Assembly: GCF_037996765.1 (NCBI RefSeq)
Contig: NZ_JBBNAD010000004.1
Coordinates: forward strand, 372,001-436,000
Source of the DNA: Bdellovibrio sp. GT3
GTDB taxonomy: Bacteria > Bdellovibrionota > Bdellovibrionia > Bdellovibrionales > Bdellovibrionaceae
DNA length: 64,000 nucleotides
Direction: 5' to 3'
Below are positions 4,424-37,834 of this stretch, in pieces. Below the pieces are notes generated by a model. The model worked only from the letters and a program-made list of their open reading frames with translations, searched no databases and was not told the DNA's origin. The first letter of the stretch is position 1; every line of letters starts with the position of its first letter. The translations under genes and the position numbers were made by a program.

Positions 4424-6757
4424 TCAAGCTTCGCCAATCTCCGCCCACGTGATGCCATCGCCACCGTGTTCAGGAGATCCCGCTTTCCATTTTTTTACAT
4501 AAACAGAACGAGACAGGTATGTGCGGACGGCCTTTTTCAACGCCTCCGTGCCATGCCCATGAATGATCTTCAGGCGATCTTCGCGGGTGGTGGCAGCCTT
4601 GTCCAAAGCAATCTCCAATTCCTGTAGTGCTTCTTCGACGGTTTTGCCGCGTAAATCCAATGTGCGATCCTCGTCGGCCATCGAGGCTGAGAAGCCACCT
4701 GAATTTTTTCTTACCAGTTGGGAAGTGGGGTTCTGTGGTTTACCAGGCAGTCTTAAATCCTGCCAGTTTACCTGCAGGCGCACTGAGCCTGACAAAATCA
4801 ACAGATCCCCTTTGTTGTTCGGTGCACTTTGCACGATGCCGTCCTGATTCAAAGTAGGTACGAACACTTTCGAACCTGGAGGGAATTTTTTTGCAAACTC
4901 ATCCGCTGTCTGTGGAGCTCCGGCTTGCACGACCGGTTTGGCTTTGACGATTTCAGGAAGCTGATACTTGATTTCCTGAAGAGCCGCGTGCCGCTTGAAA
5001 GTTTCTGCCACTTTGGCTTGTGCAATAGCGTCCTCCACTTTGCGTTCAGCTTTCTTCAAAGTGCGTTGCAGCCACTCATCTTTGTCTTTGTTGAATTGCG
5101 CAAGCAATCCATCGTACTTGTTTTTGGTTTCGACAGCCTTTTTGGTTTCTTTGCGCAAATGATCCTGAAGAATTGAGATATCACTTTTCAACTGTTCAAT
5201 CTGTTCAAGGCCTTCCAGGCGTGCGCGCGTGGCTGGTGCCAATACATCCATGGCTCTTTGAACGATGGATTGGGCGACGCCAACACGTTTTGCAGTTTGA
5301 ATCGCCAAGGAGTCACCAGGTATCCCTGCCAAAAATCCATATGTAGGGCGGCCGGTTTTAGGATCGTATTCCATGCTGCCGTTAAGGACGCGGGAGTTTT
5401 CATCCCAGCCGGATTTCAAAGGGCCCAAATGCGACGTTACGATGGCAAAGACATCGTTCGCAGAGAATTCCTCGATGAAGGCACGCGCCAGGGCACTTCC
5501 TTCTTCGGGATCTGTGGAGCCACAGATTTCGTCGATTAAGATCAGATTTTGATGGCCTTTGACGGAAGCGGCCTTGCCCAGAATTTTCAAGTGGGCTGCA
5601 AATGTGGAGAGTTCCTCGTCAACACTTTGGCTGTCGCCGATCCCGATCAGGACATCTTTAAAAAACGGAATGCGCGAAGTTTCGCTGGCGCAAATAGGAA
5701 GTCCGCAGCGAGCCATCTGGGCAGCAAGCCCAATTGATTTTAGCAATACGGTTTTACCGCCGGCATTGGGACCGCTTAAAAGCAGGATGCTTTTTTTGCC
5801 ATCCAAAAGGACCGTGTTTGAAATAACTTTTTTGCCACTCAGTTGTAGCAGCGGATGGCGCACTTCGATAAGTTCCATTGTGTCTGTGGCGAACTCAATC
5901 GGATGTCCGTTGATTTGGTTTGTGAACTGGGCCTGGGAAAAGCGAATATCGCCTTCCTCCATCAAGACACGCGAGCTTTCAATGTCTATCACCTGTGATG
6001 AAAGATAGTGAGAAAGCTGGGTTAACAGTCTTTCGATCTCGTCCTCGATTTCCGCTTCAACCTGTCTGAGGCGGTTGTTGGTCGGAATGACTTTTTCGGG
6101 CTCAATGAAAACGGTTTGCTTACTTTGTGAAGAACCGTGAATCACGCCAGGAAGTTTGCTTTGCATGCCTGCGCGAACGGGTAGAACCCAACGTCCTTCG
6201 CGGGTTGTGACGAATTTATCCTGAATGACGGTTTCCATCTGATGGTCGCGCACCAGGCGATCCAGGGTGTTCTGGACTTCGCGGGCCAGGCGTTCTTTCT
6301 CTTTGAACAAGTTGTACAAAGTCTCGCTCGCGTCAGAACGGATTTCTCCGCCGGGAGTCAGGATCTGATCGATGGCTGAAAGAGGTTCTTCCGCATCCAT
6401 CAGGCTGTCATGCATTCTTTTTGCCCAAGAGTTTTCAATGGGTTCAAGCGCTTCCTTCAAGGCCAGGGCTTCCATGCAGAAGCTGCGAACGTCTTTAATT
6501 TCCAGAGTTTTAAGGACGGCTTTCTTTTTCAGACGAGCGATCCATGTTGAATACAGATCCAGGCTCTGCATGTAGGGGCGGAGTCCTTGATTCAGAACTT
6601 CAGTGGCATCGGCAATTTCCTGGAAGCTGACATATGCTTCTTCGGCGGAAGACAGCGGCTTGATGTCGAGTACAGCTTCACGGCCCACATCACTTGTGGC
6701 GTGGGATTTTATTTTTTCTAAAATTTCAATCCAATCAAGGACGACGAGATCTTGCAT
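4424..6757 (-). CDS. mutS2: Endonuclease/ribosome-rescue ATPase MutS2
   Basis: The 777 residues match the usual length of about 785. The order is a MutS core/lever region, the ATPase domain with Walker A GPNAGGKT and Walker B LILIDEICGSTDPEEGSA, a long coiled coil (EQLKSDISILQDHLRKETKK onward), and a C-terminal Smr domain with LDLRG and HGHGTEALK near the end. MutS2 lacks the mismatch-recognition domain. It is linked to suppression of recombination and, in Bacillus, to sensing collided ribosomes through the Smr domain. The ATG at 6757 lies inside the end of lnt (23-nt overlap), so translation is probably coupled to it. Confidence 0.95.
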   Translation of the reverse strand: MQDLVVLDWIEILEKIKSHATSDVGREAVLDIKPLSSAEEAYVSFQEIADATEVLNQGLRPYMQSLDLYSTWIARLKKKAVLKTLEIKDVRSFCMEALALKEALEPIENSWAKRMHDSLMDAEEPLSAIDQILTPGGEIRSDASETLYNLFKEKERLAREVQNTLDRLVRDHQMETVIQDKFVTTREGRWVLPVRAGMQSKLPGVIHGSSQSKQTVFIEPEKVIPTNNRLRQVEAEIEDEIERLLTQLSHYLSSQVIDIESSRVLMEEGDIRFSQAQFTNQINGHPIEFATDTMELIEVRHPLLQLSGKKVISNTVLLDGKKSILLLSGPNAGGKTVLLKSIGLAAQMARCGLPICASETSRIPFFKDVLIGIGDSQSVDEELSTFAAHLKILGKAASVKGHQNLILIDEICGSTDPEEGSALARAFIEEFSANDVFAIVTSHLGPLKSGWDENSRVLNGSMEYDPKTGRPTYGFLAGIPGDSLAIQTAKRVGVAQSIVQRAMDVLAPATRARLEGLEQIEQLKSDISILQDHLRKETKKAVETKNKYDGLLAQFNKDKDEWLQRTLKKAERKVEDAIAQAKVAETFKRHAALQEIKYQLPEIVKAKPVVQAGAPQTADEFAKKFPPGSKVFVPTLNQDGIVQSAPNNKGDLLILSGSVRLQVNWQDLRLPGKPQNPTSQLVRKNSGGFSASMADEDRTLDLRGKTVEEALQELEIALDKAATTREDRLKIIHGHGTEALKKAVRTYLSRSVYVKKWKAGSPEHGGDGITWAEIGEA

Positions 6758-8384: not shown

Positions 8385-9224
8385 GTGAAATTAAAAGTCC
8401 GATGCCCAGGTTGTGCTAAATTATACGAAGTTGCGAGTGATGATATTCATTCGGAAACTCCGGTATTTCAGTGCATTTCTTGCGACAACCGTTTTGGTTT
8501 CGAATATCCTCCGATGGATCCTGCGAGTGTGCTTACGTTCTTGGTACCTGTGACTGGTATGGCGCCAACTTCTGATGCGCAGCAAAAACAAGTCACGACA
8601 GAGGAAATCCTGGAATCCATCACAAAGCCCGCGGTTGAGCCAACAGTGGAGCAAGTGCAAAGCCAGGAAATGAAGTCATGCCCGAAATGCGGCGCTTTGA
8701 ATGGTCGTCGCGCTCATGAGTGCTATTCTTGCCACGTTTTGTTTGAGCGTTTGGTAGGGCTGCCTCAGGATGCCAGCCTCCGCGCGCAGCCAAGTCTGGT
8801 GCGCAAATGGAAAAACGTTTTGGATAATTTTGAAGATGAGAGCCTTCACGAGGCCTTCATCAAAAGTTGTGCGGAACTTGATGCTCATCGTTTTGCGATT
8901 TTGAAATACGAAGAAATTAAATCGGCTCAGGGTGGGGATGCACTTTGCGATCAAATGATCGCGCGTATCAACAGCATGATGATGGTGGGTATTTCTCAAA
9001 AGCCAACAACCAGAGTTGCCAACCCAGCGCACGCAAATCGTCCCAAGTGGATGAAGTGGGTCTACATCGGTCCATTCGCCGTCAGTGCTGTGTTGATTCT
9101 TTGGGGATTGCTAAATCTTGGAAACCGCAATTTGGTCGGCGTGGGCGTGGCATTAGCCTGTATGGCGACCGGTATGATCGTAATGATCCGCGGACGCTTA
9201 TCACTTTCAGATTTCATGGATTAA
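8385..9224 (+). CDS. Zinc-ribbon membrane protein of unknown function
   Basis: The 279 residues begin at once with a zinc ribbon of MJ0042 type (CPGCAKLYEV ... FQCISCDNRFGF). A linker and a second ribbon (CPKCGALNGRRAHECYSC) follow, then a helical region and two C-terminal hydrophobic segments (VYIGPFAVSAVLILWGLL and LVGVGVALACMATGMIVMI). Because the ribbon starts at residue 5, the GTG at 8385 must be the start. It lies only 33 bp from the divergent lnt start. MJ0042-type ribbons are common at the N-termini of myxobacterial and bdellovibrio proteins. No activity can be inferred. Confidence 0.75.
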   Translation: MKLKVRCPGCAKLYEVASDDIHSETPVFQCISCDNRFGFEYPPMDPASVLTFLVPVTGMAPTSDAQQKQVTTEEILESITKPAVEPTVEQVQSQEMKSCPKCGALNGRRAHECYSCHVLFERLVGLPQDASLRAQPSLVRKWKNVLDNFEDESLHEAFIKSCAELDAHRFAILKYEEIKSAQGGDALCDQMIARINSMMMVGISQKPTTRVANPAHANRPKWMKWVYIGPFAVSAVLILWGLLNLGNRNLVGVGVALACMATGMIVMIRGRLSLSDFMD

Positions 9225-9229
9225 AAAGC

Positions 9230-9259
9230 AAAAAGGCAGTCGGTGAGACTGCCTTTTTT
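9230..9259. terminator. Bidirectional intrinsic terminator between convergent genes
   Basis: AAAAAGGCAGTC pairs with GACTGCCTTTTTT around a 5-nt loop. It lies between the zinc-ribbon gene (stop at 9224) and the end of the convergent protease gene (9264), with T runs on both strands. Confidence 0.9.
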
Positions 9260-9263
9260 AGTT

Positions 9264-10631
9264 TTAGAAGCTTTCGTCGTCTGTGGCTTTGGTGCCCAGA
9301 CGAGTTGGCTTGGGTTTGCCGTTGCCAATCGCATTGATTAAAGAGCGACCAAAGCGGCTGACCTCGCTGGCGGCATGGCCCGCAGGAGCTTCATTCGGAT
9401 CAGCACCCAACTTTTGCATGCTATCCACATTTACTGTGACCACGCCTGAAGCCGACACGCCCTGATCCAAAATCGTCAAAGCTTTATATAGATTCAACTG
9501 ACGGGAAGTGCGTGTTTTGGTTGCAAGCTGAGTTTGCGCATCACCTGTTGCCAGGATGTACTTCTTAACATCAGCCGCCGTGAAGGCCTGCTTATTGGCC
9601 ATAACCAATACTGCTGCACCTGAAACAAAGGCTGTCGCTTGAGAGGTACCGGTCATGTAGCCGTAAGAGTTGCCAGGCAAGCACGAACGAATGTTTTGGC
9701 CGGGAGCTGCGATATCCACGGTTTCGACACCATAGTTGGACGAGCTTAGAACCTGAACTGTCGGGTCCAAGGCTGTCACTGAGATGATATTTTTAAGCTT
9801 ATAGTCTGCAGGGTAGTAATGATGCTCGTCCGAGTTGGAACGCTCATTACCAGCAGCTGCAACGAAAAGAATACCTTTCTTTTCGGCTTCCTTAACAGCG
9901 TCGTGCTCTTCTTGAGAGAACTCGGTGCCGCCACCTGAATAGTTGATGATCTTTGCACCCATTTTCACAGCGTAGTTAATTGCCGCAACCGTGTTTTTCA
10001 AGTTGTCGGTATTTGGAACTTTAGGATCGTAGTACTTAAGAACCATCAGGCTGACTTCAGGGGAAACACCGGCGATGCCCTTGCCATTGCCAGCTTCAGC
10101 ACCAATGATACCGGCGATATGTGTGCCATGTCCGTGATTGTCATCCAGCTTGTTGTTGTTGGAAACAAAGTTCCAACCGTGAACGTCATCCACGAAACCG
10201 TTGCCATCGTCGTCGATGCCGTTGGTCGCCTTGTCGCGCCCCAAAGCATCTTTGCCAGTTTCACCTGGGTTCATCCAAAGATTTTTGCTTAAGTCTTCGT
10301 GATTAACATCAATACCCGTATCAATAACTGCGACCACGATATCCTTGTCACCACGAGTGACGGACCACGCACGTGCCGCATCGGATTTTTTCAAACCCCA
10401 AGCCTGGCTGATGGCAGGGTCATTAAACAAAGCACTGGGTTCGTCTTCAACCTTGTCAGTCTGTGAAGTGATCTTGGAATTCTCAAAAAGACGTCCGTCT
10501 TTTTTGCTGAACTTGCTGGAGCTCTGCGAACGAGACGGGGAGGAGTCTGAAATATACAGGTAAGTGCCCAATCCACCAAAGAAGATCACGCCGACGGCAC
10601 CGGATGCTAACAACCACTTGCGAGAAAACAT
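9264..10631 (-). CDS. Exported subtilisin-like serine protease (S8)
   Basis: The 455-residue protein has an N-terminal hydrophobic signal or anchor (WLLASGAVGVIFFGGLGTYL). The catalytic triad is visible as VIDTGIDVNHED (Asp), HGHGTHIAG (His) and GTSQATAF (Ser), with oxyanion Asn in AAAGNE. An Asp/Asn-rich loop (NGIDDDGNGFVDDVHGWNF) resembles a calcium-binding insertion. The ATG at 10631 is chosen because AAAGGGGA lies just upstream; an in-frame TTG 21 nt earlier would place that site inside the gene. No long propeptide is obvious. A GTCTC-N5-GAGAC dyad at 10699-10713 lies upstream. A role in prey digestion is inferred. Confidence 0.92.
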   Translation of the reverse strand: MFSRKWLLASGAVGVIFFGGLGTYLYISDSSPSRSQSSSKFSKKDGRLFENSKITSQTDKVEDEPSALFNDPAISQAWGLKKSDAARAWSVTRGDKDIVVAVIDTGIDVNHEDLSKNLWMNPGETGKDALGRDKATNGIDDDGNGFVDDVHGWNFVSNNNKLDDNHGHGTHIAGIIGAEAGNGKGIAGVSPEVSLMVLKYYDPKVPNTDNLKNTVAAINYAVKMGAKIINYSGGGTEFSQEEHDAVKEAEKKGILFVAAAGNERSNSDEHHYYPADYKLKNIISVTALDPTVQVLSSSNYGVETVDIAAPGQNIRSCLPGNSYGYMTGTSQATAFVSGAAVLVMANKQAFTAADVKKYILATGDAQTQLATKTRTSRQLNLYKALTILDQGVSASGVVTVNVDSMQKLGADPNEAPAGHAASEVSRFGRSLINAIGNGKPKPTRLGTKATDDESF

Positions 10632-10689
10632 GAAGAGTTCCCCTTTCTCCAAGGGGCTTATCGGCAGATTTACGTCGAGGTGAAGCTAA

Positions 10690-10719
10690 AACCGCGCTGT
10701 CTCACTCTGAGACAGGCGC
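10690..10719 (-). terminator. Hairpin after the slt gene, overlapping the GTCTC-N5-GAGAC dyad
   Basis: On the minus strand GCGCCTGTCTCA pairs with TGAGACAGCGC (one bulged base) around a 3-nt loop and is followed by GGTTTTAG. It comes 11 nt after the slt stop codon (10730) and could terminate slt. The same bases form a perfect GTCTC-N5-GAGAC dyad about 70 nt upstream of the protease start, so it may equally be an operator. Confidence 0.5.
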
Positions 10720-10729
10720 TTGGTCGGGG

Positions 10730-32894: not shown

Positions 32895-33326
32895 TTAGTT
32901 AAACCACTGACCTTGGTAGTTTTGTGGATAACATGCCCATTGACCGTAAGAATTGATTTTATACCCGAAGAAAGCCACACCGTTTTGACCGCGGTATTGA
33001 GTACAACCAGCCTCCGGCAAGCAAGTTCCATTCACCAGAACATAACCTGATTGACCGTTACAAGTTGGAGTGCCAGTCGTAGTTGTTGTGCTGTAAGTAC
33101 CAGCCACACACATATTAGTAGAGTAGTCATAACCAAAGTTTGCAGCGTAACCCATGCTAGTACATTGAGCTGTTGGCAAGCAGCCTTTATTAGTTACGTA
33201 AGCGTATCCAGTTCCGCAGGAGTTAGCTGCAGTATTAGATGAACCGGAAGAATTGCTCTTAGAGCAATTGGCCAAGAATAATGTCATACCCATCAAAAGA
33301 ACCGTAAGAATTGTTTTCGTTTTCAT
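32895..33326 (-). CDS. Cysteine-rich lipoprotein with an internal duplication
   Basis: The 143-residue protein has a lipoprotein signal ending in LFLANC and a Ser/Asn linker. Two copies of a Cys-rich unit follow. Copy one contains GYAYVTNKGCLPTAQC and NFGYDYSTNMC; copy two contains GYVLVNGTCLPEAGC and FFGYKINSYGQWAC. The shared pattern is GYxxVxxxxCLPxxxC, then FGY and a further Cys. I do not recognise a named family. GAGGGA precedes the ATG, and the 16-bp element AAAAAACGTCTCACTT lies 17 bp upstream. Confidence 0.8.
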   Translation of the reverse strand: MKTKTILTVLLMGMTLFLANCSKSNSSGSSNTAANSCGTGYAYVTNKGCLPTAQCTSMGYAANFGYDYSTNMCVAGTYSTTTTTGTPTCNGQSGYVLVNGTCLPEAGCTQYRGQNGVAFFGYKINSYGQWACYPQNYQGQWFN

Positions 33327-33545: not shown

Positions 33546-33986
33546 ATGACAGAGGATATGCAATTACATATATTACTGAGCAAGCTGACGATTGATTTTG
33601 AAACGGCTCTGGAAGAGTTCTTTCAGGAGTACAAACTAACCACCACTAGATTCATCATTCTGAACCTTCTTTATAATAGTCCCGATGGGATGACTCCAAC
33701 AGAGACAGCCAAGGCGGTGGGGGTTACCAATGCGACGATTTCAGCCATCATCTCGAATTTGAAACAGGTCGGATGGATTGATTCCCGTCAAAAGTTGGGG
33801 GACAGTCGTTCATACAGCATTGTTTTGTCAGACTCAGGTCTGGAACTAATGAATAAAGTCCTGCCAGTTTATAATCAAAACATCAGTCAAATGTGGTCCC
33901 AGTTCAGTAGCGATGAGAAACGGAATTTAGGGAACTTAATGACTCGAGTCAGTCAGCTGGTCGGGGTCATGAGCAAGAACAATTAA
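33546..33986 (+). CDS. MarR-family transcriptional regulator
   Basis: The 146-residue protein has the MarR winged helix: RFIILNLLYNSPDGMTPTET, AKAVGVTNATISAIISNLKQ (recognition helix) and VGWIDSRQKLGDSRSYSIVL (wing). GGAGAGG lies just upstream of the ATG. The gene ends 36 bp before the propeptide gene and may control the propeptide-protease pair, although no inverted-repeat operator stands out. Confidence 0.9.
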   Translation: MTEDMQLHILLSKLTIDFETALEEFFQEYKLTTTRFIILNLLYNSPDGMTPTETAKAVGVTNATISAIISNLKQVGWIDSRQKLGDSRSYSIVLSDSGLELMNKVLPVYNQNISQMWSQFSSDEKRNLGNLMTRVSQLVGVMSKNN

Positions 33987-34022: not shown

Positions 34023-34781
34023 ATGAAAAAGGGTCTTATTGTTTTAGGAATCGCACTTGTGGCGGCCTTTCTGTTTCGGGAAGGTCAGCGTGAAGGCGTA
34101 TCGACCCTGGCTAAAAACACTGGCAAGTCTCTGGATGTTCAAACGGAGAAGCTTTCGAATCTCGACAATAATACGAACGTGAGCAGTCCATCTCAACAGG
34201 CGGTGGCAGTGCAGCCGTCGCCATCACAAACTGTCGCCGAAGAAGACCCGGCTCAGATGCAGTCTCGGGAAATTGTTCCGCGTGAACTGGCACGTCCTCA
34301 AGCTCATCCTAAATTCGCAAAACCTGATTCCGGGGATTTAAAAGGAAATTATCTTTTTAGAAGTTCCTCTTGGAAAGTATGGACGGGGGTTCGTGCGGTT
34401 CCAAAAGTAAATGTGGAGCCAGGTGATGAGGTTGTGGGGCTGGCTGCGGGTTATGCGATAATCAGGGATTCTGCAATGCTCGGTGACGAGAGAAACTTTT
34501 CGCTGGCAGCTCCTATGGTGGTCTTTAACGAAAACGCCGGAAAAGTGGGCGTCATTCCTGGCCGGGTTGAAGTGAAGTTGAAGGATGCAAGACAGATTGG
34601 TCAGATTGAAAAGGAATACGGACTGAATGTTGTAAACCGATTCCCCCATCTCCGCCTGTTTTTTGTTACATCGTCATTACAGAATTTCGATTTAAGCAAA
34701 CTGGTTACTTTTTTAAAAAAAGACAAGCGTGTTGAAAAAGCTGATTTAGAGATTGTGAGTGGCAACCGTGTTAAGAACTAA
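34023..34781 (+). CDS. Stand-alone subtilase propeptide-like (chaperone/inhibitor) protein
   Basis: The 252-residue protein has an N-terminal membrane or signal segment (LIVLGIALVAAFLF) and a Gln/Pro/Ser-rich linker (residues 45-90). A small beta region is followed by a C-terminal domain that resembles subtilase N-terminal prodomains of fervidolysin type: VIPGRVEVKLKDARQIGQIE, YGLNVVNRFPHLRLFFV, VTFLKKDKRVEKADLEI. The gene ends 23 nt inside the next gene, which encodes a subtilase without its own propeptide. It therefore most likely acts in trans as folding chaperone and inhibitor of that protease. Confidence 0.72.
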   Translation: MKKGLIVLGIALVAAFLFREGQREGVSTLAKNTGKSLDVQTEKLSNLDNNTNVSSPSQQAVAVQPSPSQTVAEEDPAQMQSREIVPRELARPQAHPKFAKPDSGDLKGNYLFRSSSWKVWTGVRAVPKVNVEPGDEVVGLAAGYAIIRDSAMLGDERNFSLAAPMVVFNENAGKVGVIPGRVEVKLKDARQIGQIEKEYGLNVVNRFPHLRLFFVTSSLQNFDLSKLVTFLKKDKRVEKADLEIVSGNRVKN

Positions 34782-36525
34782 AAAGATTCTATCAGCTTTC
34801 CTTCTGGCTTTAAGCAGCGTGACTTTGAGTACGTTGCTGGTGAACTGCAATGGCAGCGGTTTTGAGCTGGCCGACTCGTGCTTTAATGATGGCGGTGACC
34901 CGTTGTTTTCTTATGCGTGGCACTTGGCTAACTGTGGGCAAAAAGGCCTGTCCAAAAATGGTGGAACCAGTGGCGTGGATTTAAATTTGCGTGCGACGTG
35001 GTCTGCGGGGATATTGGGGAATGGCGTAAAGGTTCGTGTGTCAGATGATGGTCTTCAGCATATTCATGAGGACCTCAGCCCAAATTTTCAAACTGTACAA
35101 CTTAGATCTCGGGACTATACCACGGGGAGTCCCTATGATTTCGCGACAGCTGCGCCACATGATTGTCCGAATGCCGATCCAGCTTTATCTGCTTATGATG
35201 ATCACGGAACTGCAGTTTCCGGGCTTATTGCCGCAGCCGGTGGCAATGGGGTGGGGTCGCGCGGAGTGGCTCCAAAAGCGCAATTAAGTATTGCAAATCT
35301 TTTAAGCTGTGCCGTGACTCAAGACAATGCGATGATTCTTGATCAGGCCACTGGCACGGACTTCGATGTTCTGAATATGAGTTGGGGCGTGGATCAGAAC
35401 TCGTTGCCAGAAGTATATGCTGCTTATGAAACTCAATTGGAGACAGCTGTGACCAGCTATCGCAGCGGCAAAGGTGCGATTCTGGTGAAGGCGGCGGGAA
35501 ATTTCTTTACGACTGAATGCCATCATACGGCATCCGATGACAATTCAAGCAGTACTTGTGTTGGTAATTCGAATTTGGACGGGGACAATACAAACCCATA
35601 CCAAATCCTGGTGGCGGCTTTGAACGCCAAAGGTTATGCTTCCAGCTATTCTTCGCCCGGTGCGAACATTTGGATTTCGGGCTTTGGTGGGGAGTTCGGT
35701 TATACGAATCCCGCGATGGTGACGACAGATCGCTCCGGTTGCAGTAATGGATTTTCCTACACTGGAAGCTCGACGACAGTTCCTTTTCAGAATGGAAGTT
35801 CGCCAAATACAAATTGTAATTATACGGCGACTTTCAACGGAACATCTTCGGCTGCGCCGACGGTATCTGGTGTCGCAGCGTTGTTGTTGGAAGCCAACCC
35901 CAACCTGACTTGGCGGGATGTGAAATACATTTTGGCAAAAACGGCCGTGCCTATGGACTACGTGACAACGGGTTCAATTTCTCATCCATTGGGGACGTCG
36001 GTTCCGTCGGGCTATTCTTGGGAGTTGCCTTGGAAGACCAATAGTGCCGGATTTAAGTTTCACAACTGGTATGGTTTCGGCAAAGTAAACGTGGATGCAG
36101 CTGTTGCCATGGCAAGATCCTATAGCACTTCACTGGGCACTTACTTCGAGAGTCCTTGGTTGTCATTTATGGGGTTGAGTTTGGATATTCCTGCGGGGAG
36201 TGCTGCTGGTGTGACCGATACCCGAAGCATTACAGTGGGCACCGATCAGGATGTAAAAATTGAAAGCGTACAAATTCGTCTTCAGGTCACGCACACGGAT
36301 TTATCAAAAGTGGCTATTGAGTTAACTTCTCCGTCGGGCATGCGTAGTATCATCGTAAACATGCACAACACTCTGACGACTGTTGCGAACTATAATAATG
36401 AAGTCTTTCTGTCGAATGCCTTTTATCAAGAGCGTTCCTCTGGATTGTGGACGATCAAACTGGTTAATGCCAGTGGAACCGGTACACTGACAAGCTGGGG
36501 AATCAGATTCACCGGCGTGAAGTAA
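34759..36525 (+). CDS. Kexin-like S8 protease lipoprotein with P domain
   Basis: The 588-residue protein has a lipoprotein signal (ALSSVTLSTLLVNC). The kexin-type catalytic domain carries VSDDGLQHIHEDL (Asp), DDHGTAVSG (His), VKAAGNF (oxyanion Asn) and NGTSSAAPTVSG (Ser). A C-terminal P (Homo B) beta-sandwich domain follows: VQIRLQVTHTDLSKVAIELT, SGLWTIKLVNASGTGTLTSW. No propeptide lies between the signal and the catalytic domain. This domain set is that of proprotein convertases and of Aeromonas ASP protease, which also needs a separate partner. The GTG at 34759 overlaps the propeptide gene; a second GTG 9 nt later is possible. Confidence 0.9.
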   Translation: MATVLRTKKILSAFLLALSSVTLSTLLVNCNGSGFELADSCFNDGGDPLFSYAWHLANCGQKGLSKNGGTSGVDLNLRATWSAGILGNGVKVRVSDDGLQHIHEDLSPNFQTVQLRSRDYTTGSPYDFATAAPHDCPNADPALSAYDDHGTAVSGLIAAAGGNGVGSRGVAPKAQLSIANLLSCAVTQDNAMILDQATGTDFDVLNMSWGVDQNSLPEVYAAYETQLETAVTSYRSGKGAILVKAAGNFFTTECHHTASDDNSSSTCVGNSNLDGDNTNPYQILVAALNAKGYASSYSSPGANIWISGFGGEFGYTNPAMVTTDRSGCSNGFSYTGSSTTVPFQNGSSPNTNCNYTATFNGTSSAAPTVSGVAALLLEANPNLTWRDVKYILAKTAVPMDYVTTGSISHPLGTSVPSGYSWELPWKTNSAGFKFHNWYGFGKVNVDAAVAMARSYSTSLGTYFESPWLSFMGLSLDIPAGSAAGVTDTRSITVGTDQDVKIESVQIRLQVTHTDLSKVAIELTSPSGMRSIIVNMHNTLTTVANYNNEVFLSNAFYQERSSGLWTIKLVNASGTGTLTSWGIRFTGVK

Positions 36526-36529
36526 AAAA

Positions 36530-36551
36530 AAAGGCCCCGGATGGGGCCTTT
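36530..36551. terminator. Terminator between the protease and the convergent small gene
   Basis: AAAGGCCCC pairs with GGGGCCTTT around a 4-nt loop, with a long A run before it and T-rich sequence after it. It is suitable for both strands. Confidence 0.88.
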
Positions 36552-37120: not shown

Positions 37121-37834
37121 ATGAAATCTATTAAAAAAATTCTGGTAGCAAGTGGTACTGTGGTGGCATTGGCTGCTGTCGCGGTAAGCTTTCAAAACTG
37201 TGCTCCGGGTGCTTCTGAAGATGGAGCAAGCAATACAGTTGCAGCGGACGGCTATTCTGGAGATATCTATTATCCATCCAGTGGCAGTCCGATTGTGTTG
37301 ACGGCCGGTCAAAACATCACTCTTAAAATTTCCAAGCCTGCCAATTTAAGCGATCTTAGCAGCTATTATTGGGTAATCTATGATACGTCGGTTACGGCTG
37401 CGTACATCGGAACAATCACGCAAAGTGGAAGTTACTTCTATGTGTCTTTGCAGGTTAAGTCTGATTTGAGCTCTCAAAAGGATTTGCGCATCTATTTGTA
37501 TAATCCAACCACGAAATCTTATCTTGACGGCAACGGCGTTAAAATCAGCCTTCGTCCTTCTGTAAGCAATCCCTATTCTTCAGACTACGTCACAGAGGTT
37601 TGCAGTTTGAAGCAGAACTCTGCACCTACATTCTCTTTGAACAAGGCCGCAGCGTCTTCGTCAGCTCTTTACATCTTTGATAACGGGGCGGGTGTTGGTA
37701 ATACATCTTGCAGCATTGGTGGCGTGGCTTATAACTGCCTTGCGCCATCATCGTGGCCAAGCAACTGGACATCGTCCACGTTTACGGTTCAGGCCTACAA
37801 TCGTTGCGGTGTCGCCCGAACTCAGTCTTTCTAA
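37121..37834 (+). CDS. Lipoprotein of unknown function
   Basis: The 237-residue protein has a lipoprotein signal ending in VSFQNC, a lipobox type common in Bdellovibrio. The mature part is Ser/Tyr/Thr-rich and beta-like (TAGQNITLKISKPANLSDLS; SGSYFYVSLQVKSDL), with two later cysteine pairs. GGGGGGAAG lies upstream of the ATG. I recognise no family. It looks like a surface lipoprotein. Confidence 0.75.
   Translation: MKSIKKILVASGTVVALAAVAVSFQNCAPGASEDGASNTVAADGYSGDIYYPSSGSPIVLTAGQNITLKISKPANLSDLSSYYWVIYDTSVTAAYIGTITQSGSYFYVSLQVKSDLSSQKDLRIYLYNPTTKSYLDGNGVKISLRPSVSNPYSSDYVTEVCSLKQNSAPTFSLNKAAASSSALYIFDNGAGVGNTSCSIGGVAYNCLAPSSWPSNWTSSTFTVQAYNRCGVARTQSF

Follow-up and report, generated by a model that had tools for sequence, protein, structure and literature searches.

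The window, that is, the whole 64,000-nucleotide stretch of Bdellovibrio DNA analyzed here, comes from a genome of 3.58 Mb and carries at 34023-36525 two genes on the forward strand, a chaperone gene followed by a protease gene, in the layout that the initial annotation had read from the sequence. The first gene (34023-34781, +) encodes a prodomain-like external chaperone of the ORF2 family with 252 residues, and the second (34768-36525, +) encodes a protease with an S8 catalytic domain and a P-domain. These genes had initially been thought to overlap by 23 nt, with the protease starting at GTG34759. The overlap is real, but its length had to be revised: comparison of the family loci shows that the protease of the relatives starts with an ATG aligned with GTG34768, so the start at GTG34759 was dropped, the overlap in the window is 14 nt (34768-34781, +) and the protease has 585 residues. 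The homologous start, with its 14-nt overlap, is found in 21 of the 22 loci of the genus. Across Bdellovibrionaceae, 22 of 31 loci share the 14-nt overlap, and the remaining family overlaps measure 16, 4, 1, 0, and -2 nt. Directly 3' of the protease gene, at 36533-36551 (+), a terminator-like hairpin (GGCCCC-GGAT-GGGGCC, then TTT) can be read from the sequence.

The protease matches the Pfam families Peptidase_S8 (5.7e-36) and P_proprotein (7.2e-16). Its Peptidase_S8 catalytic domain lies at 35017-36081 (+; Pfam residues 87-441 of the 588-aa reading) and its proprotein convertase P-domain at 36259-36510 (+; Pfam residues 501-584 of the same reading). The catalytic Asp (D93, 35044-35046, +), His (H146, 35203-35205, +), and Ser (S360 in GTSSAAP, 35845-35847, +) are invariant in alignment A1. 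As had been claimed from the start, the protease has no propeptide: a Pfam scan finds no prodomain family ahead of the catalytic domain, which is preceded only by a lipoprotein signal and about 57 residues. This signal, predicted at 34768-34848 (+) and of the lipoprotein type, ends in LLVNC with Cys27 and is atypical in having Asn at position -1 of the lipobox. It is well conserved in relatives, Asn26-Cys27 being nearly invariant among 13 aligned homologues, in agreement with the earlier prediction that the protease is a lipoprotein. Asn also precedes the lipobox Cys in the products of 32895-33326 (-) and 37121-37834 (+), where the motifs are FLANC and SFQNC next to LLVNC (Cys at 34846-34848) of the protease. 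Since Asn-Cys is found in several predicted lipoproteins of the window as well as in the proteases of the family, these observations suggest that it is a tolerated atypical lipobox in Bdellovibrio.

The protease is the sole P-domain protein of its genome, among about a dozen subtilases. Its best match in the PDB is the Aeromonas protease ASP (3hjr, 6.7e-74), and furin and kexin follow at about 1e-29. The P-domain protease of B. bacteriovorus HD100 (NP_967370.1) has been noted earlier (PMC2605481), and our literature search found no mention of a prodomain partner for it.

The upstream protein passes the cut-off of the Pfam family PF18492 (ORF_2_N; 34.7 bits versus 29.2), the family of ORF2, the chaperone of Aeromonas ASP. 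ORF_2_N is matched by 19 of 19 family members (E 0.1) and, across many phyla, by 34 of a set of 57 partners (E 0.01); 14 of these 57 partners match the fervidolysin prodomain. Gamma-proteobacterial and fused prodomains, scanned singly, stay below Pfam ORF_2_N and were assigned by an iterated profile and adjacency. An AlphaFold2 model of the chaperone, built on an alignment of the window protein with relatives from the scan, has a core (residues 101-243) with pLDDT above 93. This core consists of an N-terminal beta region (residues 101-178; 34323-34556, +) and a beta-alpha-beta-beta-alpha-beta prodomain (residues 180-243; 34560-34751, +) with its strands and helices at 181-242. In a Foldseek search with the model, 3wqb_B, the ORF2 chain of the ASP complex, ranks first (E 1.6e-3, probability 1.00). 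VIA-align places all 99 residues of 3wqb_B on residues 107-252 of the window protein (Z 9.4, rmsd 2.4), starting within the beta region at residue 107. The next structures in the fold comparison are the furin/PC1 and then the subtilisin prodomains (rows 9fid, 9fie, 3cnq, 1spb, 1scj), and the prodomain part matches those of PC1, subtilisin BPN', subtilisin E, and Tk-subtilisin.

Sequence identity between the chaperone and ORF2 is low (14-19%). PDB sequence searches with the chaperone, either as a single sequence or as a profile, gave chance matches only, and 3wqb_B was reached by fold alone. Likewise, a locus search with the chaperone alone as query found no relatives, and one with the protease alignment as query succeeded. 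A fold unrelated to prodomains had been named in the initial annotation as an outcome that would speak against its reading of the upstream protein; the best matches are ORF2 and the furin and subtilisin prodomains, so the reading is not refuted. Taken together, the ORF_2_N match, the predicted fold, and the strict linkage within the family uphold the earlier view that the upstream gene encodes a subtilase prodomain-like C-terminal domain. They support a model in which a protease lacking a propeptide has its prodomain encoded in the gene immediately before its own.

The N terminus of the chaperone is the hydrophobic segment MKKGLIVLGIALVAAFLF. Residues 4-19 (34032-34079, +) form a helix in the AlphaFold2 model and are probably an uncleaved membrane anchor; they are followed by a low-confidence, probably flexible linker (residues 20-100; 34080-34322, +) with pLDDT mostly of 50-77. 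A signal-peptidase-like AxA/AxG motif near the hydrophobic core is present in 5 of 54 upstream-type homologues from Bdellovibrionota versus 26 of 41 others, and the spacing between hydrophobic core and prodomain is about 150 aa in Bdellovibrionota versus 80-108 in other lineages, the two collections behind these counts sharing some genomes. By the same motif rule, which is not a trained predictor, the window chaperone has no AxA-like motif. Since the motif is rare and the spacer long, these sequence features suggest that the chaperone stays tethered to the inner membrane by an uncleaved anchor and a long linker.

The chaperone and protease genes are adjacent and in the same order in each of the 31 Bdellovibrionaceae loci that were read completely, and eight further loci with an S8 + P protease (L166-L173), including three genomes missed by Pfam, also have the chaperone. 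This recurrent adjacency argues that the pair is not a chance arrangement. Every S8 + P protease of Bdellovibrionaceae with a readable upstream flank has the chaperone gene in front of it, and one genome has two such proteases and two chaperones. No chaperone gene lies alongside nine P-domain proteins that have no S8 domain (L174-L181 and L183), one of which is Pfam-confirmed as trypsin-like and the others of which were recognized by a common N-terminal pattern. These nine make up a second Bdellovibrionaceae family, lipoprotein-like, with a trypsin-like domain, a C-terminal P-domain, and an IYGxDxRxDxYQ-like N-terminal motif.

Scanning named genomes with the protease alignment, we found 78 loci, and the iterated profile detects a partner at 66 of them, several of the other 12 being cut by contig ends. 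The partner is upstream of the protease in 35 loci, downstream in 25, fused in front of it in 3, and downstream but convergent in 3. Downstream partners occur in Shewanella, Desulfobacteraceae, Anaeromyxobacter MAGs, Fluviispira, and others. At the convergent loci (L143, L146, and L149), the partner is 3' of the protease on the opposite strand, so the two genes cannot share one transcript. In four genomes the partner is unlinked, lying far from the protease or on a different contig, without a protease as neighbor, and keeps its tail length. These unlinked cases (L131, L144, L129, and L133, with L185-L188) are MAGs labelled gamma-proteobacterial, in which the only detected prodomain gene is unlinked. 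Two Bacteriovoracaceae loci (L148 and L153) have no partner beside their S8 + P protease and have a weakly matching one elsewhere (L189 and L190), and L112 has two tandem pairs, with proteases at 4550-6614 and 8662-10723 and a partner after each. On a quick protease tree, parsimony requires at least 8 changes of arrangement. In the same quick tree, strong support places L100, which is of the downstream type, beside relatives of the upstream type, and monophyly of the upstream order was ruled out (AU test on a quick tree, p 4e-7). The survey shows repeated fusion, splitting, and relocation of an ORF2-type prodomain in the course of evolution.

Where the prodomain stops has stayed nearly constant through these changes. 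In the window, the tail IVSGNRVKN (34752-34778, +) comprises nine residues after the last strand position of the prodomain (E243) and is expected to reach into the active site of the protease; its pLDDT is about 50 in the model of the chaperone alone. Measured with a profile cut off at the last strand, the distance from this strand to the chaperone C terminus is nine residues in 89 of 94 homologues of any arrangement, a count in which some genomes were entered twice via two collections. In the three natural fusions (L123, L132, and L150), residue nine is Met, within RPM, QPM, and HPM, and the split relatives of the fusions' clade end in VPM. Because the nine-residue end is fixed and Pro-Met is common to the fusions, the stop codon appears to stand where a fused form would be cut, and we infer from these sequences that the cut in the fused form would come after residue nine of the tail. 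A model of the fusion L150 is confident overall, with a pTM of 0.86, and pro-subtilisin chains are absent among the matches listed for it.

In most loci of Bdellovibrionaceae, the tail reads aromatic-x-Lys-(Asn/Phe/Tyr/Lys). With an ATG start and the 14-nt overlap, the codon at chaperone position -4 must have AT as its last two bases, which mostly gives Tyr; the window has a GTG start and Arg at this position. The tail pattern is kept in some loci without the 14-nt overlap, so the overlap alone does not account for its conservation. The window tail ends in Val-Lys-Asn and would thereby place in S1 a residue, Asn, that is unusual there.

The Bdellovibrio pair is homologous to Aeromonas ASP/ORF2 (PDB 3wqb), with the gene order reversed and the partner, as predicted, anchored. 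Like that system, it combines a homologous propeptide-less S8 + P-domain protease, its triad intact, with a separate partner of the ORF_2_N family that has the ORF2 fold and a tail running to the same end. For Aeromonas, it is reported (PMC5638518) that ORF2 is needed for ASP maturation and also inhibits ASP, that its C terminus contacts the catalytic site close to the catalytic serine, and that its gene is downstream of asp. The initial annotation thus correctly placed the Aeromonas partner gene downstream but went too far in calling its layout unrelated; since the two pairs are true homologues, the contrast is one of gene order and anchoring, not of kind. Unlike in Aeromonas, the Bdellovibrio partner gene is upstream in each of the 31 family loci and, in the window, overlaps the protease gene by 14 nt, its product combines an anchor predicted to stay uncleaved with a long linker, and the protease is a predicted lipoprotein. 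Moreover, ORF2 ends in Gln-Pro-Lys, whereas the window tail ends in Lys-Asn.

The partner has the same fold as the prodomains of furin/PC1 and subtilisin, which are intramolecular chaperones, and three fusions of the present protease family likewise bear the prodomain on the protease chain. Unlike those prodomains, which are cut from one polypeptide, the Bdellovibrio prodomain would have its cut replaced by a stop codon. The lipase foldases Lif and LipH are described (PMC13381987 and PMC3352829) as inner-membrane-anchored periplasmic steric chaperones with one client. The Bdellovibrio protein would resemble them in build only, as an anchored dedicated steric chaperone; unlike Lif, it has an alpha/beta prodomain core of unrelated fold and a protease as client, and it does not belong to the Lif family.

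We consider it very probable that this is a pair of the ASP/ORF2 type, in which the upstream gene encodes a membrane-anchored steric chaperone that is also a product-like temporary inhibitor of the protease. In the mechanism that we propose, the protease's own prodomain was split off and would now be encoded first, by the upstream gene. The overlap would couple translation of the two genes, so that the chaperone is made first and in step with the protease. The N-terminal helix and long linker would keep the chaperone at the inner membrane with its prodomain in the periplasm, where the newly exported lipoprotein protease may fold on it. The nine-residue tail would then lie in the active site as a self-cleaved propeptide does after the cut, with the stop codon of the chaperone gene replacing the cleavage itself. 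Once the chaperone is lost or degraded, the active protease would be free to reach the outer membrane, and its final location may be the cell surface. Weighing against this reading are the low sequence identity to ORF2, the Asn at the tail end, the low model confidence of the tail, and the atypical lipobox.

The upstream protein might instead be a stand-alone inhibitor, an immunity-like protector inside the maker of a protease that folds unaided. Prodomain-like proteins can indeed be pure inhibitors, as exemplified by the propeptide-like inhibitor of malaria SUB1 (PMC6993865), and a membrane anchor fits a local protector. We regard this explanation as improbable, since the protease has no prodomain of its own, the linkage is strict and an unlinked partner is still in the genome, and the ORF2 relative is reported to be needed for maturation (PMC5638518).

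It is very unlikely that the prodomain-like protein has a different client or function, such as sensing or regulation together with a MarR protein, and is only incidentally adjacent to the protease. A MarR-type regulator gene (33546-33986, +; Pfam MarR 2.4e-08) does precede the pair in the window by 36 bp, and a MarR relative lies 35-40 bp upstream of the pair in most of 5 other loci holding one, all within one subclade. Most loci have no MarR gene and always have the protease, and the trypsin + P-domain proteins are without a partner. For the regulator, the gap of 36 bp given in the initial annotation is real, but its suggested control over the pair does not hold in general: the gene is at this position in only 6 of 31 family loci, with other genes elsewhere, and MarR was ruled out as a general regulator. 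As a possible local regulator, it may act on the chaperone-protease pair in this one subclade.

Frameshifting through the gene overlap into one joined chain is barely credible even with the natural fusions of the same two domains (L123, L132, and L150), given that the overlap varies (14, 16, 4, 1, 0, and -2 nt) with no common slippery site seen, that fusion would bury the conserved lipoprotein signal of the protease, which also has a start codon of its own, and that the partner is downstream, convergent, or unlinked in many lineages.

Beyond the anchored chaperone-inhibitor that we favor, the pair may be an instance of a pre-cleaved zymogen, a reading that we hold tentatively and find slightly harder to accept than to doubt. 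Self-cleavage would repeatedly have been swapped for a stop codon as the prodomain was fused, split off on either side, placed convergently, and moved away, its last residue falling almost always at the cleavage point, and the Bdellovibrio form would be a membrane-anchored foldase, similar in build to lipase foldases but of different fold, confining activation to one place in the predator's envelope. A prodomain is usually regarded as part of the enzyme chain. Here, a single family spans the range from one chain to two unlinked genes while keeping the prodomain end almost to the residue. Because this one family has every arrangement, swaps between natural variants could test what a prodomain on the same chain, and its cutting, add. 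For the Bdellovibrio protease itself, the upstream gene supplies a partner that is probably needed for its expression. A second subtilase is encoded inside the window at 9543-10346 (-) (G000:C4:381543-382346), and another lies beyond the window end (C4:439354).
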